Positions 36,337 to 58,858 of a stretch of 64,000 nt of DNA are shown piece after piece (position 1 is the stretch's first letter; each line of letters begins with the position of its first letter). The notes under the pieces were generated by a model that worked only from the letters and a program-made list of their open reading frames with translations, ran no database searches and had not been told where the DNA came from. The translations under genes and the position numbers were made by a program. Origin of the DNA: an uncultured Clostridia bacterium (GTDB lineage: Bacteria; Bacillota; Clostridia; UBA1381); assembly GCA_947624485.1 (NCBI GenBank), contig CANQKM010000003.1:62001-126000 (forward strand), read 5' to 3'.

Positions 36337-36340
36337 AGGA

Positions 36341-36476
36341 AATAAAACTCACGCGCCCCTTACGGGGCGCGGCTTTGATATAATAATTTTTAGAATTTCA
36401 ACTCACGTACTTTATCAAAACAATATGATGATATTTTTTGTTTCTGATGCAAGCACGAACACTTACTAAAAAACTT
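36341..36476 (-). ncRNA. crRNA-like regulatory RNA predicted to guide Cascade to the cas promoter
   Basis: Read on the minus strand, a consensus promoter is followed by an extended hairpin (36457-36406), then TGAGTTGAAAT (36405-36395), the same 11-nt 5' handle as the array's crRNAs. A 21-nt spacer-like segment (36394-36374) comes next. The element closes with a 33-nt degenerate repeat (36373-36341) sharing 23 of 33 positions with the array repeat, with stem changes that preserve pairing (GCGCCCC with GGGGCGC). The first 17 guide bases match minus-strand sequence at 36623-36607, the cas -10 region, except at position 6. TTC, the usual type I-C PAM, lies immediately 5' of that site. CRISPR-derived RNAs repressing cas operons are known in other type I systems; the function here is inferred. 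Confidence 0.82.
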
Positions 36477-36482
36477 AATAGT

Positions 36483-36511
36483 ATTATAGCATAACTATAT
36501 AACCATGTCAA
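36483..36511 (-). promoter_or_regulatory. Consensus promoter of the crRNA-like RNA
   Basis: On the minus strand TTGACA (36511-36506) and TATAAT (36488-36483) are exactly 17 bp apart, both full consensus. The predicted start is near 36476. No protein-coding frame with a ribosome binding site follows, which fits a noncoding transcript. Confidence 0.85.
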
Positions 36512-36584
36512 TATACTTGAAATTTCGCTTACTGAGTATAGCCACAATTCGTTTATGTTTTAAACAATTTATTTTGGAAAGGCG

Positions 36585-36613
36585 TTGACAAATATTAAAA
36601 TATGCTATATAAT
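36585..36613 (+). promoter_or_regulatory. Promoter of the cas operon
   Basis: TTGACA at 36585-36590 and TATAAT at 36608-36613 with a 17-bp spacer. The predicted target of the crRNA-like RNA covers the whole -10 box and the start of transcription. Confidence 0.88.
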
Positions 36614-36626
36614 AATTATTAGAGAA
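36607..36626 (-). promoter_or_regulatory. Predicted Cascade target with TTC PAM in the cas promoter
   Basis: On the minus strand the PAM TTC (36626-36624) is followed by TCTAATAATTATTATAT (36623-36607). The guide reads TCTAAAAATTATTATAT, so only base 6 differs. Beyond base 17 the two diverge, and full R-loop formation is unlikely. Confidence 0.8.
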
Positions 36627-36652: not shown

Positions 36653-38812
36653 ATGGGAGATTATATCGCTCACACATCTGAAGATGGAAGAGTACAGAGC
36701 GTAAAAGATCATTTGGAACAAACCGCAGAATTAAGCTGCGAAAACGCCGTGCCGGATTTTGCGGAGCTTGCGTACTGCTGCGGACTGTACCACGATTTGG
36801 GCAAGTATTCTCCTGAGTTTCAGAACTACATACGAGGCGCGGGAGCGAAAACAGTACACGCGCGGTTCGGCGCTGTGCGCATTATCGAAAAATGCCCAAA
36901 ATCGTATGCGGCGATGCTCGGATATTGCATCGGCGGACACCATTCGGGTTTGCCGGACGGCGGTGTCAGGAACGACAATCCCGAACAGCCTACTCTTTGG
37001 GGTATGCTGAAACGGGAAAGGTATGACTGTTCCGCGTTCGATAAGGAAATCGGCGACCGGTTCCCCGACGATATTCTGCTTGATTTGCTGCGTAAAATGC
37101 CGACGGATAAGGAGCGCGTTGAAGTATATTCATTTTTGACGAGGTACATTTATTCCTGCCTCACCGACGCGGATTTTATTGACACGGAGCGGTTCTGTAA
37201 GCCCGACGCCGAGCGCGGCATAAATGGAGATTTTGAAGCCGCGTATGAAAAGGTCTGCGCGAAGCTTGACTCTTTTGAATGCGTGACGGATTTGCAGAAG
37301 GCGCGCAGCAATATTCAGGAACAGGTTTATGAAAGCATGCAAAACGGCGATGCCAATATTTACATCGTCGATATGCCGACCGGCAGCGGTAAGACGCTGT
37401 GCAGTATAAAAGCCGCTTTAGAAACGGCGATCAAGCATAAGAAAAAACGAATTGTCTACATTATACCTTATACATCAATTATTGAACAGACAGCCGAAAT
37501 TTTCCGGGACATATTCGGCGATGTGCTGCCGGTTCTGGAGCATCACTCAAATTACGATTTCGATGATCCGAACAAAAATGACGATGAGAGCGGCAAAACA
37601 GGCGAAAAATTAAAAAAGACCTGTGAAAACTACGACGCGCCTTTAATCATTACAACAAACGTTCAATTCTTTGAATCACTTTACCATAACAAGAGCAGCC
37701 GTCTGCGGAAGCTTCACAATTTTGCGGACAGTGTGCTTGTATTCGATGAAATTCACACGCTTCCGATCAAATATATTCAGCCGTGCCTGCGCGCTGTCGG
37801 CTATATAACCCGATACTTAAATTCAACGGCGGTTTTGATGTCGGCGACAATGCCCAACTATACGCGCTTCGCCGAAAAATATATTCCTCAAAGCTCAATT
37901 GGATACGCGGTCAGGGACAACAGCCTTTTCAGCCGTTTCGACAAGTGCAGGTATGAATATATCGGTCAAAGCGATATACAGACCATAGCGGAAAAGGCGC
38001 TCGCTCAGGAGAACGCGCTCGTTATCGTCAACAGAAAAGACACGGCGCGCGAAATGTATAATATATGTAAGGACGCACCGGATTGCAATGCGTACCACTT
38101 ATCCACATACATGACACCCGTTGACCGCACTAAAATCATAGACAAAATACGGGACGATCTTAAAAACGGATTAAAAACGATCGTAATTTCCACCTCGCTT
38201 ATCGAGGCGGGCGTTGACTTGGATTTCAAGTCGGTGTTCCGTGAAATCGCGGGGCTTGACAACGTTATTCAGTCGGGCGGACGCTGCAACCGCGAGGGTA
38301 AAATGAAAGTCGGAAACGTGGTCGTGTTCAGACTCGGGCATTTGAGGGGAGATATGGAGCTTAAGGCAAATGTTACAGAAAAGCTTTTCGAGGAATTTGA
38401 AAACATTGCCTCCGCGGAGGCTGTGCAGGCGTACTATGACAGAATATTCGCCGCCGCCGATAAAATGATCGAAAGCAACTCGATAACGGCGCTGATGGGC
38501 AAAATGCGGTTTGACGGAATACCGTTCCGAACATACGCGCAATCGTTTAACTTTATAGAGTCGGAGACAGTAGGCATAGTTATTCCGTGCAAGGAGAACG
38601 CGGAGCTTATAGAAAAATTGAAATACGGAGCGCTCTCCGCAAAACGAAAGCTGCAGCCCTACTGCGCGTCCGTTCACTCGTATGAGTTTAAGGAGCTGAC
38701 AGACAAGGGAGCGGTAAAGCTGCTGGAGGAAACGTATATTCTGTCCAATCCCGATTATTACAACGGGGAAACAGGACTCAATATAAATGCAAATTTTGAT
38801 TATATTTTATAA
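36653..38812 (+). CDS. cas3: Type I-C CRISPR-associated helicase/nuclease Cas3
   Basis: 719 residues. The N-terminal HD nuclease has YHDLGKYS and GGHHSG. The helicase has Walker A PTGSGKT, DEIH, SATMP, and the late motifs SLIEAGVDLDF and QSGGRCNREG. It is recruited by DNA-bound Cascade to nick and unwind the target. It is the first gene of a seven-gene operon with a GGAGGAGG box. All core motifs are intact, so target destruction should be possible. Confidence 0.96.
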   Translation: MGDYIAHTSEDGRVQSVKDHLEQTAELSCENAVPDFAELAYCCGLYHDLGKYSPEFQNYIRGAGAKTVHARFGAVRIIEKCPKSYAAMLGYCIGGHHSGLPDGGVRNDNPEQPTLWGMLKRERYDCSAFDKEIGDRFPDDILLDLLRKMPTDKERVEVYSFLTRYIYSCLTDADFIDTERFCKPDAERGINGDFEAAYEKVCAKLDSFECVTDLQKARSNIQEQVYESMQNGDANIYIVDMPTGSGKTLCSIKAALETAIKHKKKRIVYIIPYTSIIEQTAEIFRDIFGDVLPVLEHHSNYDFDDPNKNDDESGKTGEKLKKTCENYDAPLIITTNVQFFESLYHNKSSRLRKLHNFADSVLVFDEIHTLPIKYIQPCLRAVGYITRYLNSTAVLMSATMPNYTRFAEKYIPQSSIGYAVRDNSLFSRFDKCRYEYIGQSDIQTIAEKALAQENALVIVNRKDTAREMYNICKDAPDCNAYHLSTYMTPVDRTKIIDKIRDDLKNGLKTIVISTSLIEAGVDLDFKSVFREIAGLDNVIQSGGRCNREGKMKVGNVVVFRLGHLRGDMELKANVTEKLFEEFENIASAEAVQAYYDRIFAAADKMIESNSITALMGKMRFDGIPFRTYAQSFNFIESETVGIVIPCKENAELIEKLKYGALSAKRKLQPYCASVHSYEFKELTDKGAVKLLEETYILSNPDYYNGETGLNINANFDYIL

Positions 38813-38830: not shown

Positions 38831-39553
38831 ATGGGCTACGGATTTAAAATTATGGTGAGCGGACAATACGCGTGCTTTACCCGCCCCGAAATGAAAACGG
38901 AGAGGGTGAGCTATGACGTTCCGACGCCGGGCGCCATGGAAGGGCTTATCAAAAGCGTTTACTGGAAACCCGCTCTGCGGATCGTGGTGGACAAAATCGT
39001 GGTGTTCAGTCCGATCAAATTCGTAAACGTGCGGCGCAACGAGGTGAAGGAAAAGGTAAGTCTTTCGGGCGTGAAAAAGCAGATGAAGGACGGACAGGAA
39101 CGGGCGGCGCTGTACACTTCGGATATTCGGAGTCAGCGCGGCAGTATGATTCTCAGAGACGTTCTGTACGGCGTTGAGTTCCATTTTGAGCTTACCGGCA
39201 TAAGGAGCGAGCATGACGACGAAAGCGAGGAAAAGCACTACAATATCATGCTCCGCAGACTGAAAAACGGACAGTTTTTCAGACAGCCGGTTCTCGGCTG
39301 CCGCGAGTTTGCGGTTGACAAACTCGAGCTTGTGGACGAATTCCCGATGGACAGAGTGTCCGAAGAGTTAAAGGGCGACGTGGATCTCGGTTATATGCTG
39401 TACCACATGAAGTTCCGCGACGGCGGTATCCCGAAGGACAACGACTGGGAAGCGCGCAGATTTTCGGACGAGGCGGACGCGATGTTTTACCGTCCGCACA
39501 TGGTTGACGGGGTGATAGACGTGGCGAAATACGGGGAGGCGATGAGATGCTGA
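38831..39553 (+). CDS. cas5c: Type I-C Cas5 (crRNA-processing Cascade subunit)
   Basis: 240 residues. It begins with GYGFKIMVSGQYACFTRPEMK, in landmarks GQYACF and RPEMKTERVSYD, typical of Cas5d/Cas5c. In type I-C, which lacks Cas6, Cas5 cleaves the repeat RNA and stays on the 5' handle. PTPGAMEGLIKSVYWKP is another family signature (PTPGAMEGL). It overlaps cas8c by 7 bp. The preserved 5' handle of the crRNA-like RNA suggests that this protein can bind it. Confidence 0.95.
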   Translation: MGYGFKIMVSGQYACFTRPEMKTERVSYDVPTPGAMEGLIKSVYWKPALRIVVDKIVVFSPIKFVNVRRNEVKEKVSLSGVKKQMKDGQERAALYTSDIRSQRGSMILRDVLYGVEFHFELTGIRSEHDDESEEKHYNIMLRRLKNGQFFRQPVLGCREFAVDKLELVDEFPMDRVSEELKGDVDLGYMLYHMKFRDGGIPKDNDWEARRFSDEADAMFYRPHMVDGVIDVAKYGEAMRC

Positions 39554-41328
39554 TAAATGCGCTTAACGATTATTACGATTTTTTGTCCGAGGCGGGAAAG
39601 GTCGCGCCTCGGGGAATGTCTTTGCAAAAAATCACTCATATGATAGCGCTCAAAACCGACGGCACGGTAAGCGATATTATAGATGTGCGCGAGCAGGGAA
39701 AACCCGATAAAAAGGGCAAGACAAAGCTTGAGCCGGTCAGTGTCTTTTTGCCGAAGCGAGAGCAGAGAACATCGGACATCCGCCCCAATATAATAGAGCA
39801 TGATCCGCAGTATATTTTCGGACTGAGTTACGATAAGGGAACGGAAAGCTTCGGTAACGGAAACAAAAGAGACAAGGAAAAGCATGAGCGCTATGTTGAA
39901 TTGAATTTGGATTATACCAAAGGAATGTCGTCCGATATTGTGACGGCGTACAGGAATTTTCTGAAAAACTGGGTGCCGGAAAACGAGACTGAAAACGCGG
40001 CGCTTATGAATATCGTGAAGGAATATCCGGGCGCGTATTTTATATTTTGTCTCGACGGTCATCCTGAAATCACGCTTCATGCTCCGGACGGCGAGATAAT
40101 GCGAAAGGTTATAAACAGCGCCGGCGCGGAGAAAAAATCCGACGGCATCTGCGCGGTGACGGGTAAGCCGGCGGAGATTGCGAAGCTGCACGACAAGATA
40201 AAAGGAATTAAGGGCGGACAAGCCTCCGGCTGTCTTGTTGTGAGCTTTAACAATTCGGCTTTTGAATCGTACGGAAAAACACAGTCGTATAACGGCTCAA
40301 TATCCGGCGATGTGATGAAGCGCTACACCGAGGCGCTTAATATTCTGACAAGCGACACGAAGCATCATATTTATCTGGACGATATGACCGTAGTGTTCTG
40401 GGCAATGTCAAAGGACGATGGCAAAGAGACGGACGCGCTTATGAGCATGTTCGGTTTCGGAGATGAAAAAGCCGACGCGTCCGAGGTGGACGAATGGATC
40501 GGGAATGCGTTACGGGAATTGAGCGAGGGGCGAAAAATCGATTTATCGACTGCGGGCATTGATGAAAACGTCACGTTTTATGTGGCGGGACTTGCGCCGA
40601 ACAGCTCGCGAATTGCGCAGAAATTCATATACCGCGATAAATACGGGAATATATTTGAAAACGCCGCGAGACATCAGCTTGATATGAAAATCGACGGCGG
40701 CGGAAAGCAAATACCGATTTGGCGTATGCTGTACGAAATGAAATCGCCCAAGAGCAGAAACGAAACGACGCCTCCGCCCGTTATCGCGGCAATTTTCGGC
40801 GCGATACTGAACGGAACGCGTTACCCCGACACGCTGCTTGAAACGATAGTAAGGCGGGCTAAGGTTGACAAAGCAATAAATTATGTGCGGGCCGGAATTA
40901 TAAAGGCTTGTATAAACAGAAATTTAAGGTTAAACGAGAAAAAGGAGGAAATCGAAGTGTCACTCGACAAAACAAACACAAATGAGGCGTACCTGTGCGG
41001 AAGGCTGTTCGCGGTGCTGGAGCATATTCAGCAAAACGCGCTGGGCAAAGTGAACAAAACGATTAAAGATTCATATTTTGCGTCAGCGTGCTCAACGCCG
41101 TCGCTGGTATTCCCGAAGCTCATATCGCTTGCCCAAAATCATCTTAAAAAAGATAAGTACGCGGTAAGCAACAATATCCTGATTGGCGAAATCATGGACA
41201 AGCTCGGAACGGAATTTCCGTCAACGCTGTCGCTTCAGGATCAGGGCAGATTTATGATAGGCTACTATCAGCAGGTGCAGGATTTGTTCAGAAAAAAAGA
41301 TAAACAAGAAGATACAAATAACGATTGA
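39547..41328 (+). CDS. cas8c: Type I-C large Cascade subunit Cas8c (Csd1)
   Basis: 593 residues, the usual Csd1 length. Family landmarks include FLKNWVPENE, CAVTGKPAEIAKLH and LVSFNNSAFESYGK in outline. Cas8c reads the PAM and helps open the DNA; an internal start in its 3' part usually also gives the small subunit Cas11c. A candidate start for Cas11c lies in the last third, where AAAAAGGAGGAAATCGAAGTG occurs near 40940, in short AAAGGAGG followed by a GTG. This internal product is inferred from what is known in other I-C systems. Confidence 0.93.
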   Translation: MLINALNDYYDFLSEAGKVAPRGMSLQKITHMIALKTDGTVSDIIDVREQGKPDKKGKTKLEPVSVFLPKREQRTSDIRPNIIEHDPQYIFGLSYDKGTESFGNGNKRDKEKHERYVELNLDYTKGMSSDIVTAYRNFLKNWVPENETENAALMNIVKEYPGAYFIFCLDGHPEITLHAPDGEIMRKVINSAGAEKKSDGICAVTGKPAEIAKLHDKIKGIKGGQASGCLVVSFNNSAFESYGKTQSYNGSISGDVMKRYTEALNILTSDTKHHIYLDDMTVVFWAMSKDDGKETDALMSMFGFGDEKADASEVDEWIGNALRELSEGRKIDLSTAGIDENVTFYVAGLAPNSSRIAQKFIYRDKYGNIFENAARHQLDMKIDGGGKQIPIWRMLYEMKSPKSRNETTPPPVIAAIFGAILNGTRYPDTLLETIVRRAKVDKAINYVRAGIIKACINRNLRLNEKKEEIEVSLDKTNTNEAYLCGRLFAVLEHIQQNALGKVNKTIKDSYFASACSTPSLVFPKLISLAQNHLKKDKYAVSNNILIGEIMDKLGTEFPSTLSLQDQGRFMIGYYQQVQDLFRKKDKQEDTNND

Positions 41329-41345
41329 TAAAGGAGAGAATTACA

Positions 41346-42209
41346 ATGGAAGCAATTAAAAACAGATACGAATTTATAGCGCTTTTTGACGTTGAAAACG
41401 GCAACCCCAACGGCGATCCCGACGCGGGCAATATGCCGAGGGTTGATCCTGAGACCGCGCACGGCATAGTTACGGATGTATGTATCAAGAGAAAGATACG
41501 CAACTATGTCGAGCTTTGCAAGGAAGGCGAGGCGGGCTACAACATACTTATCAAAACCGACAAATCGCTCAACTCAAAGTTTAAGGCTGCATATGAGGCG
41601 GAAGGTCTTGCGACCGGACAGAAGGGCAAAAATCCCGACGATGTCAGAACGGCACGCAGCTATATATGCAGAAATTATTTCGACGTGCGCGCGTTCGGCG
41701 CTGTAATGAACACGGGTGATGATCCGTGCGGCATTGTGCGCGGCCCCGTTCAGGTCAATTTCGCGAGAAGTATCGATCCGGTATATCAGCAGGACATCAC
41801 AATCACAAGACAGGCGAGAACCACGGAAGAGAGAATGGGTACAGGCGAAACGGAAATGGGCAAAAAGAGCATAGTACCCTACGGACTGTACAAGGCTGAG
41901 GGATATGTGTCGGCGATGCTTGCACAGAAGGTCACGGGCTTTTCCGAGGACGACCTCGAGCTTTTGTGGACGGCTATCATCAATATGTTCGAGCATGACC
42001 ACAGCGCAGCGCGCGGTAAAATGTGCATGAGAAAGCTTATCGTGTTCAAGCACGAAAACCCTCTCGGAAACGCTCCGTCGCACATTTTGTTCGATAAAGT
42101 GGTAGTCAATAAAAAAGCGGGCGTGGAATTTGCGAGATCATACGATGATTACGATGTTGTAATTGACAAAAATATGCCCGAGGGCGTAACGCTTATTGAA
42201 AAGCTATGA
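41346..42209 (+). CDS. cas7c: Type I-C Cascade backbone subunit Cas7 (Csd2)
   Basis: 287 residues from the ATG at 41346, preceded by AAAGGAGAG; an upstream in-frame start at 41325 lacks such a site. Csd2 landmarks are FDVENGNPNGDPDAGNMPR, SYICRNYFDVRAFGAVM and the glycine-rich RGPVQVNFARS, here shortened to NGNPNGDPD, YFDVRAFG and GPVQVNFA. Several copies coat the crRNA spacer. It is translationally coupled to cas4 through ATGA. Confidence 0.96.
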   Translation: MEAIKNRYEFIALFDVENGNPNGDPDAGNMPRVDPETAHGIVTDVCIKRKIRNYVELCKEGEAGYNILIKTDKSLNSKFKAAYEAEGLATGQKGKNPDDVRTARSYICRNYFDVRAFGAVMNTGDDPCGIVRGPVQVNFARSIDPVYQQDITITRQARTTEERMGTGETEMGKKSIVPYGLYKAEGYVSAMLAQKVTGFSEDDLELLWTAIINMFEHDHSAARGKMCMRKLIVFKHENPLGNAPSHILFDKVVVNKKAGVEFARSYDDYDVVIDKNMPEGVTLIEKL

Positions 42210-42853
42210 CGGTAAATATTCGCTCAATTCAGCACTATATGTATTGTCCGCGTCAGTTCGGACTGCTTGAATTAAACCGGGATTGGTCGGAAAACGCGTT
42301 CGTCGTGATGGCGAACATTATGCACGAGCGCGTTCACTCCGGCAAGCATGAGCTTCATTCAAAGAATAAAATCGAGCTTAGCTCCGTTTCGCTGTACCAC
42401 GATGAACTTGATTTGTACGGCGTCGCCGATTGCATTGAATTTGTAAGAAGCAAAACGGGAACGTATATCGAGCAGCTCGGCGATAAATTTGACGTAAACA
42501 TAGTTGAATATAAGCCCCGCCGAAGCGAGTCGGAAAATACGAATGAAACGAATGCAATACAGGTTTTTGCTCAAAAACTCTGCGCGGACTACATATGGAA
42601 ATGCAAAAGCACGGGATATATTTATTACAGTGACACGCGCCGCAGGGAAAAACTGCGGTTGAATGAGGAGTATGATAGATATTATTCTCTGCTTCAAAAA
42701 CTGATTTCCGAAATTAACGAAATCCTTGAAAGCGGGAATATTCCGGCACGAGTTAAAGGACAGAAATGCAGCGGGTGTTCGGTAAAAGACATATGTATGC
42801 CGCAGAACAAGGCGTACACCGTCCGCAGTCTTGTTAAGGAGGAGAGCGTATGA
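42206..42853 (+). CDS. cas4: CRISPR adaptation exonuclease Cas4
   Basis: 215 residues. Fe-S cysteines are C14 in YCPRQF and the C-terminal trio in KCSGCSVKDIC. The RecB-like nuclease core shows H in MHERVHSG and the catalytic EYKPR strand. Cas4 trims prespacers and selects those with the right PAM, working with Cas1-Cas2. It overlaps both neighbouring genes by 4 bp. Confidence 0.95.
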   Translation: MTVNIRSIQHYMYCPRQFGLLELNRDWSENAFVVMANIMHERVHSGKHELHSKNKIELSSVSLYHDELDLYGVADCIEFVRSKTGTYIEQLGDKFDVNIVEYKPRRSESENTNETNAIQVFAQKLCADYIWKCKSTGYIYYSDTRRREKLRLNEEYDRYYSLLQKLISEINEILESGNIPARVKGQKCSGCSVKDICMPQNKAYTVRSLVKEESV

Positions 42854-43872
42854 GAAAGCTTTTGAACTCACTGTACATAACCGATGAGAGCATATATCTG
42901 ACGCTTGACGGAGAAAACATTGTGTGCAGGAAGGATAATAAAATTCAGCTTCGCTTGCCTTTTTCAAATATCGAGGCGGTATACTGCTTCGGCTATCTCG
43001 GCTGTTCGCCCGCTTTAATGGGAAAATGCGCGGAGTACGGTATACCGATAACCTTCATATCGCCGCAGGGACGTTTCCTCGCAAGCGTTCACGGAGCGTC
43101 GCACGGTAATATACTGCTGCGAAAAGCGCAGTTTGAAAAATTTGCGAACCCTTCCGCGCTGCTGCGGCAAAACACGGTCGCCGCAAAAATGGCAAACACA
43201 CGCAGCGTTGTGAAGCGGACGCTGAAGGACTATCCGTCGGCAAATGATGACGGCAGTCTTTCGCATTGTATCGAGCTTTTGAACCAATACATAGAAAACG
43301 TGTATGCGACCGAGGATGTAAACGAAATTCTCGGAATAGAGGGACGCGGGGCAAAGGCGTATTTCGATATTTTTGACAGCTTGATTCTGCATCAAAAAGA
43401 CGATTTTCATTTTGCCATGCGCACAAAGCGTCCCCCATTGGACAGAGTAAACGCGGTGCTGTCGTTTTTGTATACCGTCTGGACAAACGATTACGCGTCC
43501 GCTCTCGAAAGCGTCGGACTGGACAGCTACATGGGATTTTATCACGCTGTCCGTCCGGGACGCGCGTCGCTCGCGTGCGACCTTGTTGAGGAAAGCCGCT
43601 GCATAGTGGAACGATTTGTTCTTACCATGATCAATTTGAAAATATTAAACGCGAAGGATTTTGAAACGCAGGTAAGCGGAGCGGTATTTCTTAATACGGA
43701 CGGTAGAAAGAAGCTGCTCGCAAAGTGGCAGGAAAAGAAGCGTACAGATATTATGCACCCGTATCTGAAGCAGAAAATACAGCTCGGTCTTTTGCCGTAC
43801 GCGCAGAGTATGCTGCTTGCGAAATATATCCGCGGCGAAATCGAGGAATACCCGTGCTACATTGTGAAGTAA
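42850..43872 (+). CDS. cas1c: CRISPR integrase Cas1, type I-C
   Basis: 340 residues. Metal ligands are E in GIEGRGAKAYFD, H in FYHAVRPGRASLACD and D in that same motif. It integrates new spacers at the leader end as part of the Cas1-Cas2 complex. RKLLNSLYITDES at the N-terminus is typical of I-C Cas1. Cas2 follows 18 bp downstream. Confidence 0.96.
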   Translation: MRKLLNSLYITDESIYLTLDGENIVCRKDNKIQLRLPFSNIEAVYCFGYLGCSPALMGKCAEYGIPITFISPQGRFLASVHGASHGNILLRKAQFEKFANPSALLRQNTVAAKMANTRSVVKRTLKDYPSANDDGSLSHCIELLNQYIENVYATEDVNEILGIEGRGAKAYFDIFDSLILHQKDDFHFAMRTKRPPLDRVNAVLSFLYTVWTNDYASALESVGLDSYMGFYHAVRPGRASLACDLVEESRCIVERFVLTMINLKILNAKDFETQVSGAVFLNTDGRKKLLAKWQEKKRTDIMHPYLKQKIQLGLLPYAQSMLLAKYIRGEIEEYPCYIVK

Positions 43873-43890
43873 GGAAAGGAAACCGAAATT

Positions 43891-44181
43891 ATGATGAGTG
43901 TGGTAAGCTATGACGTCTCGACAACCGATGCCGAAGGAAAGCGCAGGCTCAGGAAGGTCGCAAAAGAATGTGTCAATTACGGTCAGCGCGTGCAGAACTC
44001 CGTTTTTGAGGTTGATGTTGACTACTCAACATTTTTGAAGCTGAAGGATAAACTGGAAAATATTATTGACCATGACAAGGACAGCCTTAGGATATATTAC
44101 CTCGGCAACAACTGGAAAAGGCGCGTCGAGCATATCGGCGCAAAAGCAACGTATGATCCCGAGGGCGCGCTGATTATATGA
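43891..44181 (+). CDS. cas2: CRISPR adaptation protein Cas2
   Basis: 96 residues. The ferredoxin-like core begins SVVSYDVSTTD, with the usual catalytic-site aspartate in YDVST. It bridges two Cas1 dimers. AGGAAAGGA lies upstream. ATG codons occur at 43891 and 43894; the first is used here. It is the last cas gene, 143 bp before the first repeat. Confidence 0.95.
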   Translation: MMSVVSYDVSTTDAEGKRRLRKVAKECVNYGQRVQNSVFEVDVDYSTFLKLKDKLENIIDHDKDSLRIYYLGNNWKRRVEHIGAKATYDPEGALII

Positions 44182-44324: not shown

Positions 44325-47300
44325 GTCACGCCTCGCATGAGGCGTGTGAGTTGAAATCTCAATCATCATGTCAACTTGATTATCGTCGCCGTCACGCCTC
44401 GCATGAGGCGTGTGAGTTGAAATGTATACATCTTCTTCGGGGATGTAGTAACATACAATGTCACGCCTCGCATGAGGCGTGTGAGTTGAAATACCGATTT
44501 GTATGGATGTCCACCTATCCGATTATGGTCACGCCTCGCATGAGGCGTGTGAGTTGAAATGCAAGACGGTATACCCCATAACATCATACGCAGCATGTCA
44601 CGCCTCGCATGAGGCGTGTGAGTTGAAATACGCAGCTTTGTTTACGACAACAGCGCGAGCATTAAGTCACGCCTCGCATGAGGCGTGTGAGTTGAAATCG
44701 AAATGAAGCGTAATATGTCGCTGGGCTTTAAGGTCACGCCTCGCATGAGGCGTGTGAGTTGAAATATAAACACCGTATCATGGACATTGACTAACTCAGA
44801 AAGTCACGCCTCGCATGAGGCGTGTGAGTTGAAATAATCCAGCTATCCGGCACCCAATCGCCGAAAAGGTCGTCACGCCTCGCATGAGGCGTGTGAGTTG
44901 AAATTGTTTTAACCGACAGTAATAACATCGGAGAGGAGGTCACGCCTCGCATGAGGCGTGTGAGTTGAAATTGTATGTACCTACTCTTAATCTAAATCCG
45001 GGGACGTCACGCCTCGCATGAGGCGTGTGAGTTGAAATTATAACCGGCTGGCTAAGCAGAGTACAAAACCAAGGAGGTCACGCCTCGCATGAGGCGTGTG
45101 AGTTGAAATTTGCCAAATGTCGCCCATTTTTCAAAGTAGAATGTGTCACGCCTCGCATGAGGCGTGTGAGTTGAAATATGGCTGCTCCTTTCCGGGTAAA
45201 AATTTTACCTCGTCACGCCTCGCATGAGGCGTGTGAGTTGAAATCCACCATTCGCCTCCGTCTGTGCCAATTACGGATAGTCACGCCTCGCATGAGGCGT
45301 GTGAGTTGAAATATTTTTTTAATTTTGCCGTCATTCGTGTGCAGTTGTCACGCCTCGCATGAGGCGTGTGAGTTGAAATCAACATTATTCTCTGTCATAG
45401 TAGTGTAATCTCCGTCACGCCTCGCATGAGGCGTGTGAGTTGAAATTCAATCTTCCGCGCTTTCTCTTTGTCCGCTGTGGTCACGCCTCGCATGAGGCGT
45501 GTGAGTTGAAATTCGTCTGTCTCGTCGAGGTCAACTATCGAGCAGGTCACGCCTCGCATGAGGCGTGTGAGTTGAAATGGACGGACTACCTTTATCACGC
45601 CAAAGCGAGACGGTCACGCCTCGCATGAGGCGTGTGAGTTGAAATATGCTGTAGGTGTTTACTACAACAAGGTTCTTCGTCACGCCTCGCATGAGGCGTG
45701 TGAGTTGAAATGCACACAAATACGCCCTGCTACGAAGTAAAGCACAGTCACGCCTCGCATGAGGCGTGTGAGTTGAAATCATCAGCAGTAGACAGTTACA
45801 AGCCGGCAGACAAGGTCACGCCTCGCATGAGGCGTGTGAGTTGAAATGCACCTCTCTAAAAATCTCGACCATTTTTTCGATGTCACGCCTCGCATGAGGC
45901 GTGTGAGTTGAAATTGCGTGAAATCCCTGCAGCGCGTCTGGCTTGCTTGCGTCACGCCTCGCATGAGGCGTGTGAGTTGAAATGCGCAGCGTCTCCTCCG
46001 TGATTTCCCAAGGCAGGTCACGCCTCGCATGAGGCGTGTGAGTTGAAATGTGTAAATACCGACATACAAATTCGGCCGTCTGCCTGTCACGCCTCGCATG
46101 AGGCGTGTGAGTTGAAATACAAACCAAACAAGAGCGTACAAGAAGAATGGAGGTCACGCCTCGCATGAGGCGTGTGAGTTGAAATCCTATCGTCATGAGG
46201 AACGCGGAAGATGTAAATGGTCACGCCTCGCATGAGGCGTGTGAGTTGAAATCCTTGAACTCTGATAAGCTCCCGAAAAATTTATTGTCACGCCTCGCAT
46301 GAGGCGTGTGAGTTGAAATACATAGAGGGGACAAACGGAACAGGAAAAACCCGTCACGCCTCGCATGAGGCGTGTGAGTTGAAATGTAATCACATCAATG
46401 CTATCAACGCTGTCGGTGGCGTCACGCCTCGCATGAGGCGTGTGAGTTGAAATCCGACAAGTATTTTGATTTGGCGATTGTAGATCCGGTCACGCCTCGC
46501 ATGAGGCGTGTGAGTTGAAATTTACAAACACCTACATATCCCTCGGCTACGGATTTCGTCACGCCTCGCATGAGGCGTGTGAGTTGAAATGACGACTACC
46601 TTGACGACACAAACTGTACGAATTTCCGTCACGCCTCGCATGAGGCGTGTGAGTTGAAATCGGCAACGCATTGATTAAAGGATCGGAAGATCACAGTCAC
46701 GCCTCGCATGAGGCGTGTGAGTTGAAATCGTTGTGTACTTGCCCTCGGCACAAATCCCGATCGAGTCACGCCTCGCATGAGGCGTGTGAGTTGAAATCAG
46801 ATTTGGACGACGGCAGGAAACACCGCCCTCTCGAAGTCACGCCTCGCATGAGGCGTGTGAGTTGAAATTGCAAAGAAGCAAGTCTACGTTTACAACACAA
46901 GGTCACGCCTCGCATGAGGCGTGTGAGTTGAAATACGACGGCAATTCAGCCGGCAGTTTCAGGGCTATCGTCACGCCTCGCATGAGGCGTGTGAGTTGAA
47001 ATATGCCGCTTACGTGCGCGCCCATAGTGGTAAGCGTCACGCCTCGCATGAGGCGTGTGAGTTGAAATGTATCTGCTATAGTCGGCCATTTTAGCCCGCC
47101 GCCGTCACGCCTCGCATGAGGCGTGTGAGTTGAAATATAAATTCATCTGCGCGTATCGCGGCGTCCGAAGTCACGCCTCGCATGAGGCGTGTGAGTTGAA
47201 ATATCACGTCTCGCTCCCGTTCTGCTGCCTCCATAGCCTCGTCACGCCTCGCATGAGGCGTGTGAGTTGAAATCGCGCCCGTTCCTTTATGCGTTCGTGG

Positions 47301-50300
47301 GGGAGGGTCACGCCTCGCATGAGGCGTGTGAGTTGAAATAAATTTGATACCGCTGTTAATCGCCAGTTGTAATAGTCACGCCTCGCATGAGGCGTGTGAG
47401 TTGAAATCAAGCATATCTATAAGGGTGCTGCGGACTTCTGAGTCACGCCTCGCATGAGGCGTGTGAGTTGAAATCCGACAATAATATGATTTGGGAAAAC
47501 CGTATCATGTCACGCCTCGCATGAGGCGTGTGAGTTGAAATTTTACAAGGTCGCCTTTGCGTATCCACGGAATGTGTCACGCCTCGCATGAGGCGTGTGA
47601 GTTGAAATCCGGGATCAAGATTTGCTCCGCAGTATTCGCACGGTCACGCCTCGCATGAGGCGTGTGAGTTGAAATACAGAAGCTTGGTACTACTTCAACG
47701 ACTCTTGGGGTCACGCCTCGCATGAGGCGTGTGAGTTGAAATCCATTCCGGTGGTACTCCACAACAGTTGCAAGCGTCGTCACGCCTCGCATGAGGCGTG
47801 TGAGTTGAAATCGTCGGGAACACTGTGCTTCCGCGCTCTCCAACGTCACGCCTCGCATGAGGCGTGTGAGTTGAAATATATATTCGTTCAAACGGAGCAG
47901 GATAACGCAGGTCACGCCTCGCATGAGGCGTGTGAGTTGAAATGTCTTTATCCTTTATGGGCGTAATGCTGTCTCCTTGTCACGCCTCGCATGAGGCGTG
48001 TGAGTTGAAATTTGTAGGCTCGTATACATTGGGGAAGTATAGTGCGTCACGCCTCGCATGAGGCGTGTGAGTTGAAATGCCTACAAATCGTATGTCTATC
48101 GGCAGGGAGCGTAAGTCACGCCTCGCATGAGGCGTGTGAGTTGAAATATTGGTAGCGGCACAACAGCGGTAGTTGCAAGAAGTCACGCCTCGCATGAGGC
48201 GTGTGAGTTGAAATGTTGCTCCCTGTATTGTAGCCGGCCGCTCCGCAGTCACGCCTCGCATGAGGCGTGTGAGTTGAAATGAGGCCAATCTGGCCGTCAA
48301 CGCCATAATCTCGCGTCACGCCTCGCATGAGGCGTGTGAGTTGAAATAAGGAGGTGTAAAGTGATGTTTGAGCGACTTGGCAGTCACGCCTCGCATGAGG
48401 CGTGTGAGTTGAAATATAATGAAACGATGCAAGAAAGGTGATGATGTGCGTCACGCCTCGCATGAGGCGTGTGAGTTGAAATCTGCGTAATCCTGTCGTT
48501 GAGCAAAAACACGTCAAGGTCACGCCTCGCATGAGGCGTGTGAGTTGAAATCTACCGCCTACATAATAGGCGTACCGTTGTCTTAGTCACGCCTCGCATG
48601 AGGCGTGTGAGTTGAAATACATCAATATATCACACAGGTGTTAGGTAGACCAGTGTCACGCCTCGCATGAGGCGTGTGAGTTGAAATGCTGTTCGCTATG
48701 CTGACGCGCTCGCCTTGCGGCGGTCACGCCTCGCATGAGGCGTGTGAGTTGAAATTTATCAGATAATAATATAGAATATGAAATAGGTAAGTCACGCCTC
48801 GCATGAGGCGTGTGAGTTGAAATGCGCCCAAGCCGAGCTTTGCGACCGACTGTATAACGTCACGCCTCGCATGAGGCGTGTGAGTTGAAATCATTATTTC
48901 GCGCAGACAGTCTGACAGCGTCCGCTTGAGTCACGCCTCGCATGAGGCGTGTGAGTTGAAATTGAAAGGAGATTATACCAATGGCAAAGAACGAAGAGTC
49001 ACGCCTCGCATGAGGCGTGTGAGTTGAAATTCGCTTATCTCCGTTATAATCTGCTCTATCCGCGTCACGCCTCGCATGAGGCGTGTGAGTTGAAATAAGT
49101 TCAAGCGGACGCTGTCAGACTGTCTGCGCGTCACGCCTCGCATGAGGCGTGTGAGTTGAAATCCCGGAACGATATTAAAAATACCCGGCGCTGCCAGTCA
49201 CGCCTCGCATGAGGCGTGTGAGTTGAAATTTATGCTGTCTTCCTGCGTTTTGTACTGCGCAGCGTCACGCCTCGCATGAGGCGTGTGAGTTGAAATCGTG
49301 ACCGATATGGTTGATATTCTGCTCCGCGCCGGTGACGTCACGCCTCGCATGAGGCGTGTGAGTTGAAATGGCAAGCAGCGAGGAACGTATGTCGTTCAAC
49401 AACGCGTCACGCCTCGCATGAGGCGTGTGAGTTGAAATATTTTTGCATATTGGACAGTTATATCCGGTTAAATGTCACGCCTCGCATGAGGCGTGTGAGT
49501 TGAAATTCGTTTACGAACGCGCAAACCGCTGTTTCTATGCCTCGTCACGCCTCGCATGAGGCGTGTGAGTTGAAATGCGCTTGAGTGTCGCCCCGTCGAT
49601 AAGCTGCTCCAGTCACGCCTCGCATGAGGCGTGTGAGTTGAAATCGAGGGCTATCCAGCCAATAGGGCCTAACGCAGGTCACGCCTCGCATGAGGCGTGT
49701 GAGTTGAAATATTCTGAGGTAGCAGTGTTAATATCCCTTCTTTTAATGTCACGCCTCGCATGAGGCGTGTGAGTTGAAATCATCATAAACGTAACCGCTA
49801 TATTCAGCACCGCCGCGTCACGCCTCGCATGAGGCGTGTGAGTTGAAATATACGGAATATCCGCCGCGTAAGGCTGTCCTCGAGTCACGCCTCGCATGAG
49901 GCGTGTGAGTTGAAATGCCAATATGTGGAAGTTGCTTAGCGGCAGTGGTGGGTCACGCCTCGCATGAGGCGTGTGAGTTGAAATATCTGCTTAAGACGCC
50001 GTTGTATTTGGATTATAAGTCACGCCTCGCATGAGGCGTGTGAGTTGAAATCTCATAAAGAAATGATTTATGCTACTTCTAATATGTCACGCCTCGCATG
50101 AGGCGTGTGAGTTGAAATACTATTAAGCGATAAAATGTCACTTCTTCCAACGTCACGCCTCGCATGAGGCGTGTGAGTTGAAATACTATTTTGCTGTTGC
50201 CATTGCAACTATGCTGTTGTCACGCCTCGCATGAGGCGTGTGAGTTGAAATATCAACAAACTGACAGAAAAAGATAACTTCTGCGTCACGCCTCGCATGA

Positions 50301-53300
50301 GGCGTGTGAGTTGAAATTGAACGGAACGCCGCTGTCAAAGAACGTACTGGACGTCACGCCTCGCATGAGGCGTGTGAGTTGAAATAAGAAGAACGGGGTA
50401 AATATGGTGAATACAAAAAAGTCACGCCTCGCATGAGGCGTGTGAGTTGAAATACTACGCTAGTATCGGAAATATTCATTCCGGTGCGTCACGCCTCGCA
50501 TGAGGCGTGTGAGTTGAAATAATGCTTGACGGCAAAGTGCCGATAGTGATAGTAAGTCACGCCTCGCATGAGGCGTGTGAGTTGAAATGCATAACCGGGC
50601 GTATTCAATCCCGCGAGTATAGTCACGCCTCGCATGAGGCGTGTGAGTTGAAATATATCGCGTATTCCCTATGATAGTTCGTGTTGGGTCACGCCTCGCA
50701 TGAGGCGTGTGAGTTGAAATAAACCCTCACAATGGGACGCGACGACACCGCCGAAAGTCACGCCTCGCATGAGGCGTGTGAGTTGAAATCTACATTGGCA
50801 ACGATAACGATTATCGGCGCTGGGCGCTGGTCACGCCTCGCATGAGGCGTGTGAGTTGAAATAGCAATATTCGTAAATTTATAATTACAATATACGGTCA
50901 CGCCTCGCATGAGGCGTGTGAGTTGAAATGCGATAAGAACACACCCGTTATTGCGAGCTCGGAGTCACGCCTCGCATGAGGCGTGTGAGTTGAAATACCT
51001 TGTGAAGAACGAAAAGACCAACCACTATGGGTCACGCCTCGCATGAGGCGTGTGAGTTGAAATGCAGAAATCCCCATTTCCATCGGAAAACTGTTTACAG
51101 TCACGCCTCGCATGAGGCGTGTGAGTTGAAATCTGAAATTGCCAGTGCTATTAAAGAAATTGATTAGTCACGCCTCGCATGAGGCGTGTGAGTTGAAATG
51201 CCCTTGTAAATTGTGTATCCGCGACCGTTTTCCGTCACGCCTCGCATGAGGCGTGTGAGTTGAAATTGATGGTCGCATAATGAAAGAAAAATCCTATGGC
51301 GTCACGCCTCGCATGAGGCGTGTGAGTTGAAATCAAACACCGGTTGTAAATCCACATTGTCGGAGGCGTCACGCCTCGCATGAGGCGTGTGAGTTGAAAT
51401 AGACATACAAGGAAATGGCCGAAAACGATGATGTAAGTCACGCCTCGCATGAGGCGTGTGAGTTGAAATTGTTTACGGCAAATGCGCGCTGCCAAAAGCT
51501 CTGGTCACGCCTCGCATGAGGCGTGTGAGTTGAAATTTTGGGAGGAAAGCAATTCGGCGACAGAAAACTAGTCACGCCTCGCATGAGGCGTGTGAGTTGA
51601 AATGGTAACGCCGTCAGCGAGCAGAGCCGTTGAGTTAGTCACGCCTCGCATGAGGCGTGTGAGTTGAAATTTCATGTCGGTTATTCTCTTACGGAAAAAC
51701 TGAATAGGTCACGCCTCGCATGAGGCGTGTGAGTTGAAATGCCAATATGTGGAAGTTGCTTAGCGGCAGTGGTGGTCACGCCTCGCATGAGGCGTGTGAG
51801 TTGAAATCACCGATTTGTATGGACGTACACATATCCGATTGTCACGCCTCGCATGAGGCGTGTGAGTTGAAATTTGAAAATCCGCGAACCGAAGGGAATG
51901 TTTTGGCGTCACGCCTCGCATGAGGCGTGTGAGTTGAAATCAACAGAAATTGCTTCCCGACTCGTTTTTTGCCGTCACGCCTCGCATGAGGCGTGTGAGT
52001 TGAAATGCCCGAAGTGCGGCAGAACCTCTACACTGTATGAGGTCACGCCTCGCATGAGGCGTGTGAGTTGAAATATACAGGTCGGAGCTATCGCAACACC
52101 GGATGATTACAAGTCACGCCTCGCATGAGGCGTGTGAGTTGAAATGATGATGAGTTGGGCGACTTCGTGAGGGACGGTCGTCACGCCTCGCATGAGGCGT
52201 GTGAGTTGAAATCTAAAATCCTATCCTTGAAAAAACAAACCCTACGTCACGCCTCGCATGAGGCGTGTGAGTTGAAATTCATACTCGCAGTTTTCCGGGT
52301 TGAAAGCGTCTGTGTCACGCCTCGCATGAGGCGTGTGAGTTGAAATTGCAATCTATGATAGCAGATGCCGAAGAAATTACGTCACGCCTCGCATGAGGCG
52401 TGTGAGTTGAAATAGAAAGAACGCAAATCAGATTACGTCCGAGGGCGGGTCACGCCTCGCATGAGGCGTGTGAGTTGAAATCGGTATAGAACTATATATG
52501 CGCGCGGGAACAATAATGTCACGCCTCGCATGAGGCGTGTGAGTTGAAATTTATTGTTGCCGTTTACATAAAATGTCGCGCCTTGTCACGCCTCGCATGA
52601 GGCGTGTGAGTTGAAATCTACGGTGCTTACGCTTAAAGGCATAAAACTAACGGTCACGCCTCGCATGAGGCGTGTGAGTTGAAATAGCCCGGCTGAATAA
52701 AATCTAAAAACCGAGTGATGTCACGCCTCGCATGAGGCGTGTGAGTTGAAATCGAATAGTAACTGCAAGACGCTAAATTCCGCAGCAAGTCACGCCTCGC
52801 ATGAGGCGTGTGAGTTGAAATAACTCGAAGCGAAGGTAAAAGCCGGTTTGACACCTCTCGTCACGCCTCGCATGAGGCGTGTGAGTTGAAATCGTCCGCT
52901 CAAGCGAAAAATGAACTGCTGAAAGAGGTCACGCCTCGCATGAGGCGTGTGAGTTGAAATGGGATGTGCCTCTACCTTACTCGACGCGGAGTAGTCGTCA
53001 CGCCTCGCATGAGGCGTGTGAGTTGAAATCCCTTGACCTCATTAACTCTAAACTGCACAAAATGTCACGCCTCGCATGAGGCGTGTGAGTTGAAATAAGA
53101 AGCGCATACAGGAAATAGAGGGCATAGGCATTGTCACGCCTCGCATGAGGCGTGTGAGTTGAAATCTTCAACATTTCCTGTATGCGCTTCAATGCTGATT
53201 GTCACGCCTCGCATGAGGCGTGTGAGTTGAAATCTACGAGCTGAAAAAGAACATCGTCATCGTGTTCCGTCACGCCTCGCATGAGGCGTGTGAGTTGAAA

Positions 53301-56300
53301 TCACTGAAACCATGCCCGATGTGCAGAAGCGGGCGTCACGCCTCGCATGAGGCGTGTGAGTTGAAATCTTTATGCGTTCGTGGGGGAGGCTGCCAAAATA
53401 ATGTCACGCCTCGCATGAGGCGTGTGAGTTGAAATCGGCTGAAATACTTGCTCCTCCGTGACCTCTTGGTCACGCCTCGCATGAGGCGTGTGAGTTGAAA
53501 TTGTTGCCTGTCTCTGCTCCGACGATTACCCAGTGTCACGCCTCGCATGAGGCGTGTGAGTTGAAATGGCAGCCAACCTACCACATATTCGCCTATCGGT
53601 GAGTCACGCCTCGCATGAGGCGTGTGAGTTGAAATGTATGTCGTATCGGTAAATTTCGCGTCTGCCGGTAGTCACGCCTCGCATGAGGCGTGTGAGTTGA
53701 AATTATCGGCAAAATCGGAAACGTGCCCGCGAATACAAGTCACGCCTCGCATGAGGCGTGTGAGTTGAAATCTCATGACGATAGGAAAGTTAAAATGACG
53801 GGTAAGTCACGCCTCGCATGAGGCGTGTGAGTTGAAATGCGTTGTTGTTGTTCGCGTTGCCGTTGTTGTTGACGTCACGCCTCGCATGAGGCGTGTGAGT
53901 TGAAATGTGTGTTTTCTTGAAATCTCAATGTCTGCCATTGTCACGCCTCGCATGAGGCGTGTGAGTTGAAATCCACAGCTTTATGGCGATTTTTGCCTGC
54001 TGTCTAGTCACGCCTCGCATGAGGCGTGTGAGTTGAAATTGCCTCGTTAATCACAAACGCTACGGCTCTGCCGTCACGCCTCGCATGAGGCGTGTGAGTT
54101 GAAATTTATCTGTTTTTGCAATTCGGCGGCGAGTGTCGGGACGTCACGCCTCGCATGAGGCGTGTGAGTTGAAATAACACACGACGGCGGTCGTTGAGGC
54201 GTTGAAAGGTCACGCCTCGCATGAGGCGTGTGAGTTGAAATCTCTTTATCTGGTTTAGTCTGTCTACCACTCCGCGTCACGCCTCGCATGAGGCGTGTGA
54301 GTTGAAATGATAGCCGCTATCTTGGCAGCACGCTCGGCAGCCGTCACGCCTCGCATGAGGCGTGTGAGTTGAAATTGAGAAACTCATGCCACCGAATGTA
54401 TAATTTTCGTCACGCCTCGCATGAGGCGTGTGAGTTGAAATTTCCATGATCGCTACTTCCCTACCGGCGCAAATGTCACGCCTCGCATGAGGCGTGTGAG
54501 TTGAAATTTAAAATTGCAGCAGCTTCTTGCGCCGTCTTTTCGGTCACGCCTCGCATGAGGCGTGTGAGTTGAAATTGCCTGAAATCCCGCTCGCTGCGAT
54601 TGTCTGGTTCGTCACGCCTCGCATGAGGCGTGTGAGTTGAAATCGCCATAACCAAGTAACGGTGTCGCAGCTCGAAATGTCACGCCTCGCATGAGGCGTG
54701 TGAGTTGAAATGGCTATCTCGAAGCACCCCTCGAAGGCTGTCGCGTCACGCCTCGCATGAGGCGTGTGAGTTGAAATGTAATCAAAGTCTTTTAATATAT
54801 CTTCCAGTTTGGTCACGCCTCGCATGAGGCGTGTGAGTTGAAATCTCTTTATCTGGTTTAGTCTGTCTACCACTCCGCGTCACGCCTCGCATGAGGCGTG
54901 TGAGTTGAAATGATAGCCGCTATCTTGGCAGCACGCTCGGCAGCCGTCACGCCTCGCATGAGGCGTGTGAGTTGAAATTGAGAAACTCATGCCACCGAAT
55001 GTATAATTTTCGTCACGCCTCGCATGAGGCGTGTGAGTTGAAATTTCCATGATCGCTACTTCCCTACCGGCGCAAATGTCACGCCTCGCATGAGGCGTGT
55101 GAGTTGAAATTTAAAATTGCAGCAGCTTCTTGCGCCGTCTTTTCGGTCACGCCTCGCATGAGGCGTGTGAGTTGAAATTGCCTGAAATCCCGCTCGCTGC
55201 GATTGTCTGGTTCGTCACGCCTCGCATGAGGCGTGTGAGTTGAAATCGCCATAACCAAGTAACGGTGTCGCAGCTCGAAATGTCACGCCTCGCATGAGGC
55301 GTGTGAGTTGAAATGGCTATCTCGAAGCACCCCTCGAAGGCTGTCGCGTCACGCCTCGCATGAGGCGTGTGAGTTGAAATACCTTCCGCGAGTGCGGTGT
55401 CAAGCCGTCCTTTAGTCACGCCTCGCATGAGGCGTGTGAGTTGAAATTGCTTATACAGCAGGTCATCAGCCGCGCTTATAGTCACGCCTCGCATGAGGCG
55501 TGTGAGTTGAAATTTATAGCGCGTGTCACTGCGGTGCCAAAGGACACGTCACGCCTCGCATGAGGCGTGTGAGTTGAAATGAATATCTGCATACCTATCA
55601 ATTAAAACATCAAGTCACGCCTCGCATGAGGCGTGTGAGTTGAAATACCGAAAAGCATTTTCAGCATACTTTCGCTGACGTCACGCCTCGCATGAGGCGT
55701 GTGAGTTGAAATAGTCACAGGCATAGAGCCTGACGTCACAGACGGGTCACGCCTCGCATGAGGCGTGTGAGTTGAAATAAGTACAGCATTGACGATGAAA
55801 CAGCATTAACAAATGTCACGCCTCGCATGAGGCGTGTGAGTTGAAATATAAACAGCGGCTTTTCAAATAACGCGCAGTCGCAGTCACGCCTCGCATGAGG
55901 CGTGTGAGTTGAAATTGTGCAAGGGCCTCTACCGCGCCCAGCTTTGCAGTCACGCCTCGCATGAGGCGTGTGAGTTGAAATTCGTCAGTGCAGTTGTATA
56001 AGACCCTGACAATTTGTCACGCCTCGCATGAGGCGTGTGAGTTGAAACCAAAACCTGAAGGAAGAAATTGCAAAAGCGAAAGTCACGCCTCGCATGAGGC
56101 GTGTGAGTTGAAATTTTATTGCGGGCGAAAATGGCCCAGAGCTTATTGTGTCACGCCTCGCATGAGGCGTGTGAGTTGAAATGGCTATGACTACATCGGA
56201 TTTGAGATCGACAAAGTCACGCCTCGCATGAGGCGTGTGAGTTGAAATAGCGGCTATTTTGTTGACAAGTACATGGAAATAAGGTCACGCCTCGCATGAG

Positions 56301-57721: not shown

Positions 57722-57840
57722 TTGCCTTACATATTTAGAGGGTACGGAGATGGTAAGTATTAACCCATCATGGTGCTGTTGATGAAATCCTGAGAGATAT
57801 TAGAGCTTTTCAAAAAGTATATAGGGGAGGTATAAGGGTT

Positions 57841-58041
57841 ATGATTAAACTATGTGATTGTGATTATTGCAAAAATTGTCTTGGTATGAAAGACGGTCAT
57901 CCCGTATGTTATGCCTTTAAAGACGGAGTCCCTTATGACCACATGAACAGAGATTTGAAAAATCTTAGTGAATGCGCAAACGGTTATAAATTTGTGCCTA
58001 TAAATAAAAAAGTGATTAAACGACAAATTGATAGCTTATAA
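57841..58041 (+). CDS. Small cysteine-rich hypothetical protein
   Basis: 66 residues. Five cysteines lie in the first 23 residues (LCDCDYCKNCLG and PVCYAF), a possible zinc- or Fe-S-binding knuckle, and a sixth is in SECANGYKF. GGGGAGG precedes the ATG. I do not know a function; similar short proteins occur in Clostridia. It stands 120 bp after the last array repeat, at the start of a zone of decayed repeats. Confidence 0.7.
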   Translation: MIKLCDCDYCKNCLGMKDGHPVCYAFKDGVPYDHMNRDLKNLSECANGYKFVPINKKVIKRQIDSL

Positions 58042-58082
58042 AAGCACACCTCTCGCGTACTTTTGCCTTTATTTGGGATGAT

Positions 58083-58115
58083 AATCCAAGTCAGAGAGGC
58101 ATGTGAATTTGAAAT
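58083..58115 (+). repeat. Possible decayed CRISPR repeat
   Basis: GAGAGGCATGTGAATTTGAAAT resembles the 3' two thirds of the array repeat (GAGGCGTGTGAGTTGAAAT) with one insertion and two changes. CACACCTCTC upstream at about 58046 can pair with its GAGAGG part. It is too degenerate to be certain. Confidence 0.45.
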
Positions 58116-58127
58116 TACAATACAAAA

Positions 58128-58180
58128 ATGAGTGTCAGCACATCAACACTCATGGGGTAAAGGAGCATACCTATGTGCTG
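58128..58180 (+). ncRNA. Possible structured RNA with H-type pseudoknot
   Basis: ATGAGTGT (58128-58135) pairs exactly with ACACTCAT (58146-58153). The loop of that stem, CAGCACAT (58136-58143), pairs exactly with ATGTGCTG (58173-58180). The two 8-bp stems could coexist as a pseudoknot or be alternative folds. It lies 120 bp before a 79-residue gene and could be its leader. There is no comparative support. Confidence 0.4.
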
Positions 58181-58237
58181 GCGTAACCCTCTAACCATTT
58201 ATATTATATACCATTTTTTAAAAAATACAAGTAAAAA

Positions 58238-58270
58238 ATCACGTCTCGCAAGAGGGCTTACAAACTGCTT
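58238..58270 (+). repeat. Decayed CRISPR repeat
   Basis: TCACGTCTCGCAAGAGG matches the first half of the repeat with two differences; the second half is not conserved. It supports the view that the array once extended through this zone. Confidence 0.6.
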
Positions 58271-58299
58271 TGAAAAATTTAGACTGAGGAAGGATTATT

Positions 58300-58539: not shown

Positions 58540-58688
58540 AACAAGATACAGCGCATAAGCACGTCAGAGGACGACAAAAAATATTTGTTGGTTTTGCCTA
58601 TTGAAATATCATTGTATATGTATGATAATAATATTAAGATGAAAATGGAAAACTCAACGGCAGCATATGGTCGGGGAAGGAGAACGCA

Positions 58689-58841: not shown

Positions 58842-58858
58842 GAAGAATATCTGCACCA

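Follow-up and report, generated by a model that had tools for sequence, protein, structure and literature searches.

A probable CreR-type RNA matching the cas promoter of a type I-C CRISPR-Cas system in an uncultured Clostridia bacterium

This work describes a small element located between cas3 and a divergent gene at the head of a type I-C CRISPR (clustered regularly interspaced short palindromic repeats)-Cas locus. The locus lies in a 64,000-nucleotide (nt) stretch of contig CANQKM010000003.1 from an uncultured Clostridia bacterium, referred to here as the window. Judged by sequence, the element is very likely a CreR, a cas-regulating RNA that resembles a CRISPR RNA (crRNA). The best explanation, which we hold with considerable confidence, is that CreR-loaded Cascade would bind and repress its own cas promoter, with canonical crRNAs competing for the complex. 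Under the name CreR, such autorepression has already been described for other subtypes, and the kind of element is known; what is new here is the type I-C subtype, a 5+1+5+1+5 pairing rule, and the natural co-evolution of guide and promoter.

Anatomy of the element and its match to the cas promoter

The element is encoded on the minus strand and carries a promoter of its own, with a −35 box TTGACA (36506..36511) and a −10 box TATAAT (36483..36488) separated by a 17-nt spacer; its RNA is predicted to start at about 36475. A 70-nt leader (36406..36475) ends in a degenerate first repeat and has a predicted 7-bp stem, in which 36457 to 36451 pair with 36412 to 36406, ending exactly before the handle. 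A 7-bp stem was reached by 3 of 300 shuffled leaders, and the centroid of the predicted fold of the 135-nt RNA includes this processing stem. The first repeat appears not merely to have been lost: a predicted hairpin of new sequence stands there and ends at the handle. Next come an intact 11-nt 5' handle, TGAGTTGAAAT (36395..36405), which agrees with the array repeat's 3' end at every base, and a 21-nt guide, TCTAAAAATTATTATATCAAA (36374..36394), compared with 33 to 40 nt for the array spacers of the window. A second degenerate repeat (36340..36373) consists of a GC-rich hairpin followed by a T-rich tail, TTTTATTT, and from sequence and fold probably doubles as the 3' end or terminator. As in a CreR, repeat-like units flank a spacer outside the array and inside the cas locus. 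A sequence-only reading of this DNA had described a handle, a 21-nt spacer-like segment, and a degenerate repeat at this place, and on rereading every base that it stated was correct.

The cas promoter, on the plus strand, comprises a −35 box TTGACA (36585..36590) and, after 17 nt, a −10 box TATAAT (36608..36613). The −10 box lies wholly inside the target, or protospacer, TCTAATAATTATTATAT (36607..36623, minus strand), which is the guide's best non-self match, and the protospacer-adjacent motif (PAM) TTC (36624..36626, minus strand) sits directly 5' of it. That guide bases 1 to 17 match 36623 to 36607 of the minus strand except at base 6, with TTC alongside and the whole −10 box covered, had been claimed in the sequence-only reading and is confirmed here. 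Limited, TTC-flanked complementarity (17 positions) to the −10 box of the cas3 promoter is again what a CreR would have, and the target lies 29 nt before the cas3 start.

When the guide was shuffled 200,000 times and compared with 36407-36652, a match of at least 16 of 17 positions arose 12 times beside TTC and 45 times at any site; because the DNA is AT-rich, the match alone is only moderately improbable in the window. In the 2.7-Mb genome, handle plus guide occurs once. The guide positions that Cascade is expected to read number 15 of the 17, since guide bases 6, 12, 18, 24, and 30 are flipped out and unread, as stated for type I-E (PMC5965380). With a YTC flank, these 15 positions identify a single site in the genome, the cas promoter, and none other within 2 mismatches; a reversed control pattern of the read positions plus YTC gave 3 chance sites within 2 mismatches. 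Across the genome, the 12-mer GTGAGTTGAAAT occurs 199 times in forward orientation and twice in reverse. One reverse copy is the element; the other, a second ectopic handle (C2), lies inside a 584-amino-acid open reading frame and was rejected as chance.

Recurrence, pairing rule, and co-evolution in related loci

Relatives were gathered by two routes. A Cas3 search of genome contigs gave 15 loci, including six close relatives (L012 to L017, the prefix L denoting sampled loci); these are metagenome-assembled genomes (MAGs), five of which bear the title uncultured Clostridia bacterium and the sixth uncultured Monoglobus, with isolates named 'Lapin' that presumably come from rabbit gut. Cas8c served to gather further type I-C loci at the level of the window's family, order, class, and phylum, the phylum listing giving 80 regions taken from 103 places, with four of its genomes already sampled. 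In total, 162 loci were sampled, window included; 155 have a detectable cas3, and the scan covered 144 distinct upstream regions, each 200 nt or longer. Excluded before the count were 7 loci without a detectable cas3, 10 with <200 nt upstream, and L057, which is identical to L014. A locus was considered positive if it had a handle-like site and if the next 17 bases matched a nearby YTC-flanked site with no more than 2 mismatches.

Each of the six close relatives has the same element ahead of cas3, and there the guide's best non-self match lies 20 to 36 nt before cas3 and differs from the guide only at position 6 and/or 12, or not at all. Over the 144 upstream regions, 84 handle-like sites were detected, and 16 of these sites, in 16 loci with the window included, were positive; by chance, 0.095 would be expected, as estimated with 16,800 dinucleotide shuffles. 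The sequence-only reading had considered chance unlikely. The window match alone is only moderately improbable, but the 16 matches against 0.095 expected once relatives are included make the case far stronger, and the arrangement that the same reading had proposed to look for upstream of cas3, a handle and a PAM-flanked, cas3-proximal target, does recur. The element is conserved with its target in related loci, a further property of CreRs. The PAM is TTC or CTC in all positives, YTC having been required by the search. The first ranking ignored positions 6 and 12, a possible source of bias; a rerun with all 17 positions treated equally returned the same 16 loci.

Because close kin are over-represented among the loci, 16 of 144 should not be read as a prevalence. 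Of the 60 Cas8c-bearing genomes of the class draw, in not all of which upstream sequence was readable, 10 were positive, one of these (G357) through a region identical to that of L014; among the loci read in the phylum draw, the only positives were the window's genome and G821 (L139). Of the 144 upstream regions, 90 lack any handle-like site, and no promoter-matching element was found in the distant Cas3 matches L018 and L020 to L026 (L019 was dropped, as upstream sequence was lacking). Weaker candidates, kept outside the counts, are L055, L095, L138, and L044, with 3 mismatches each (0.145 expected), L122, with 4 (1.085 expected), and L092, which pairs over guide bases 1 to 11 except base 6. 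The handle-like elements of L138, L122, L095, and L092 pair with TTC-flanked sites over shorter stretches or less perfectly, often with base 6 or 12 unpaired, and are possibly more CreRs in other lineages.

Guide and target agree in all 16 positive loci at positions 1 to 5, 7 to 11, 13, 14, 16, and 17 and in 15 at position 15; they agree in 6 at position 6, in 4 at position 12, and in 2 at position 18. Positions 19 to 23 match in 3, 4, 9, 2, and 4 loci, respectively, and positions 24 to 36 in 1 to 6. Within the 17 positions, 22 of 23 mismatches fall at guide positions 6 and 12, and because these bases are unread by Cascade, the match amounts to three read segments (5+1+5+1+5). The guides of L040, L063/L064, and L139 have 6 to 9 of the 15 read positions in common with the window's target and keep the same rule. 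The sequence-only reading had proposed that partial pairing, with base 6 mismatched, lets Cascade bind without triggering Cas3. Its reading of position 6 recurs in the relatives, but the mismatch itself looks neutral, falling as it does on a base that Cascade does not read, and does not look like a safety device; the recurring feature is that pairing ends after base 17.

This pattern bears on a simpler explanation, namely, that guide and target are two AT-rich stretches that serve as sites for one protein regulator or are alike by chance. In the window alone such a view draws support from the moderate improbability of the match (12 of 200,000 shuffles with TTC). However, a shared operator or chance likeness would not account for mismatches that cluster at positions 6 and 12, for a YTC beside one copy and a repeat handle beside the other, or for the same rule in the quite different guides of L040, L063, L064, and L139, and we regard it as the least credible of the alternatives considered.

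Twelve of the positive loci form the window's clade (window, L012 to L017, L049, L052, L053, L056, and L058). In the window, L012, L013, L015, and L016, the element and cas3 occupy opposite strands, and in L014, L017, L049, L052, L053, L056, and L058 they share one; whichever its orientation, the target lies 20 to 36 nt before cas3 throughout. Guide length is 21 nt in 11 of the 12 and 24 nt in L053. The element's own promoter matches the consensus at 12 of 12 positions in 11 clade members and at 11 of 12 in L053, L063, and L064, while no good element promoter was seen in L040. By fold prediction, 13 of the 14 elements tested have a leader helix of 5 bp or more that stops exactly before the handle. 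L063 and L064 have no second repeat and instead carry a strong hairpin with a T-run, resembling a terminator.

At the read positions of this clade, 17 of 18 guide changes reconstructed by parsimony on a Cas3 tree recur in the target with identical letter patterns; the sole unmirrored change is at position 15 in L053. Positions 6 and 12 show six changes in the target and one in the guide, and none of these is mirrored. The Cas3 tree is a quick tree in which 6 of 17 inner branches are open, and the identity of the letters is independent of it. Had the guide been copied afresh from the promoter, positions 6 and 12 would have come along too; the co-change therefore looks like base-by-base compensation. 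A guide drifting against a fixed promoter had been named in the sequence-only reading as evidence against regulation; in these 12 loci the opposite was found, with both changing together at the read positions.

A rival reading takes the element for a spacer that targets its own genome by accident, sits in a decayed mini-array, and survives only because its pairing is too short to kill. L013 and L015 do have a second repeat-like unit beside the element, as an array remnant would, and L018, a locus from a Clostridia MAG, has a decayed array before cas3, with at least 7 repeat-like units ∼680 to 270 nt upstream. Yet that decayed array has no promoter match, and in a relic one would not expect the element's own promoter to stay at consensus, the handle to stay exact, a hairpin to stand at the cut site, and the guide to change letter for letter with the cas promoter across 12 loci; a relic is highly improbable. 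A marginally less remote candidate, although still very unlikely, is a CreA-type antitoxin RNA whose true target would be a hidden toxin RNA transcribed from the matched promoter, as in CreTA. CreTA modules have the same RNA anatomy, and in the type I-F CreA of Acinetobacter 17 of 20 nt are paired (PMC10097628). In the window, however, the target lies 29 nt before cas3, too close for a toxin gene to fit in between, and the distance is 20 to 36 nt in the rest of the clade. Relic, common protein operator, and hidden toxin were all rejected on this evidence.

Several observations weigh against the CreR interpretation or parts of it. The minimum-free-energy fold of the window's 135-nt RNA differs from the processing-competent fold, the leader helix of L015 ends one base short of the handle, and, when each leader was shuffled 300 times, equally long helices arose 0 to 17 times (highest for L013, with L015 aside), so that single helices are only modestly unusual. 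No element was found in L028, L030, L031, or L032 (the upstream sequence of L032 has an N run), which belong to the same family or genus as the window; their Cas3 proteins are 37 to 58% identical, and they represent more distant type I-C systems. The limit of 17 is partly built in, given clade guides of 21 nt (24 in L053): because position 18 is unread and the guide ends at 21 or 24, the end of pairing rests on few positions in the clade, and position 21 still matches in 9 of the 16 loci. The matched site lies 381 nt before cas3 in L040 and 259 nt before it in L139; as these sites are not next to cas3, the promoter that would be repressed is harder to assign there, and we regard these two loci as the weakest of the sixteen positives. 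Finally, no protospacer was found for the array spacers tried, and the PAM was taken from the element targets themselves and from the literature; the abstract of a Xanthomonas type I-C study names TTC as the PAM.

The cas locus, its array, and known systems

The element is flanked by cas3 on one side and on the other by a divergent radical-SAM gene (35567-36169, minus strand). An NCBIfam search of the window gave matching profiles for a complete type I-C set in the order cas3-cas5c-cas8c-cas7-cas4-cas1-cas2, all on the plus strand: cas3 (36653..38812; TIGR01587 and TIGR01596, above cut-off), cas5c, the expected type I-C crRNA processing enzyme (38831..39553; TIGR01876), cas8c (39547..41328; TIGR01863), cas7 (41325..42209; TIGR02589), and cas4, cas1, and cas2 (42206..44181; TIGR00372, TIGR03640, and TIGR01573). 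The CRISPR array follows (44325..59025, plus strand), with 198 perfect repeats of GTCACGCCTCGCATGAGGCGTGTGAGTTGAAAT plus variants and spacers of 33 to 40 nt between perfect repeats. Within 54208-55380, a 570-base block with eight spacers (54208-54777) is repeated 603 bases further on, and spacers 48900-48929 and 49101-49130 are exact reverse complements over 30 nt. Near its far end, the array is interrupted by ∼1.1 kb (57726-58858) in which no repeat copy was found at up to 6 substitutions; the repeat just before this interruption, at 57693, has a damaged handle.

Searched against phages, the whole array matched one record, in one 46-base stretch holding a repeat. In viral contigs, no match was found to the seeds of 4 of the ∼200 spacers or to a 26-base piece of the array repeat, and a degenerate pattern of the element found no phage-borne copy. 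Phage MT836150.1 (L176, from human faeces) carries at 3010-3042 a solitary repeat unit that is 31/33 identical to the window's array repeat; it lies downstream of an open reading frame that by eye resembles SSB and is followed by a terminator-like hairpin. From its sequence, this unit is a candidate RNA anti-CRISPR for the window's repeat type.

Natural guides that turn an effector on its own operon are also found outside type I: with the scaRNA, or long-form tracrRNA, Cas9 represses its own operon through short pairing, which is the likeness to the element. That system differs in having a type II single-protein effector and a guide derived from tracrRNA. CRISPR-derived regulatory elements, in the form of stand-alone repeats or mini-arrays whose spacers partly match cas promoters, were reportedly predicted, mainly in type I, by Shmakov and colleagues in 2023 in NAR. 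CreRs have been reported for types I-B, I-E, and V-A (Liu et al. 2023, Cell Host Microbe, via PMC13131331, PMC12737573, and PMC12948488); like the element, a CreR is a crRNA-like RNA encoded with a cas locus and partly complementary to the cas promoter, and through it the effector represses its own genes, thereby sensing crRNA load and anti-CRISPR proteins. The element differs in its type I-C context, with Cas5c as the expected processing enzyme, its exact 5+1+5+1+5 pairing, its 21-nt guide, and its occurrence in both orientations. No report of a type I-C CreR was found in the literature searched, from which the 2023 papers of Liu and Shmakov were absent (an earlier prediction is possible), and no single paper in it contained both CreR and type I-C as whole words.

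CreA in the Acinetobacter type I-F system (PMC10097628) resembles the element in having a short guide (20 nt, 17 pairs) with the 6th base unpaired, a PAM beside it, and degenerate repeats. The other unpaired bases of CreA are the 11th and 18th, compared with the 12th in the element; moreover, CreA represses a toxin RNA gene, whereas the element's target is the cas promoter and not the promoter of an adjacent toxin gene. Racr RNA anti-CRISPRs, which include a type I-C example (PMC10651486), are solitary repeat units bound by Cas proteins, in which they resemble what is predicted for the element. A Racr, however, is a phage-borne lone repeat that inhibits the host system, whereas the element would guide Cascade to a promoter, adjoins a complete cas operon, and has a handle, a guide, and a second repeat. 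A search of Rfam gave no match to the element up to an E value of 1.

Proposed mechanism and implications

In the mechanism that we propose, RNA would be made from about 36475 and cut by Cas5c at the base of the 5' hairpin, leaving the 11-nt handle (anatomy as in PMC5965380). Cascade loaded with this RNA would settle on the cas promoter over three 5-bp segments and block RNA polymerase, and pairing this short (17 positions versus at least 33 from an array spacer) would not trigger Cas3, leaving the chromosome uncut. Canonical crRNAs from the array (∼200 repeats) would compete for Cascade, and cas expression should therefore rise if Cascade is scarce, saturated, or inhibited and fall as free Cascade builds up.

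We also lean, with less assurance, toward a more specific proposal, in which the type I-C guide is a leash tuned to exactly three Cas7 segments (5+1+5+1+5): selection would hold guide and cas promoter together at the 15 read bases, the unread bases would drift, and the fourth segment would be kept unpaired, such that Cascade binds and represses but never calls Cas3. As the rule is seen with quite different guides in distant lineages, such elements may have had more than one origin.

If the leash proposal is true, counting drift positions in genomes alone would show how an effector reads its guide and how much pairing is tolerated before killing. The clade itself amounts to natural mutagenesis: its paired changes point out the guide bases that are read by Cascade in living cells, and the stop of pairing after position 17 suggests the limit of binding without killing. 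The pattern also supplies a simple rule, applicable to genomes alone, by which other lineages can be searched for such regulators.
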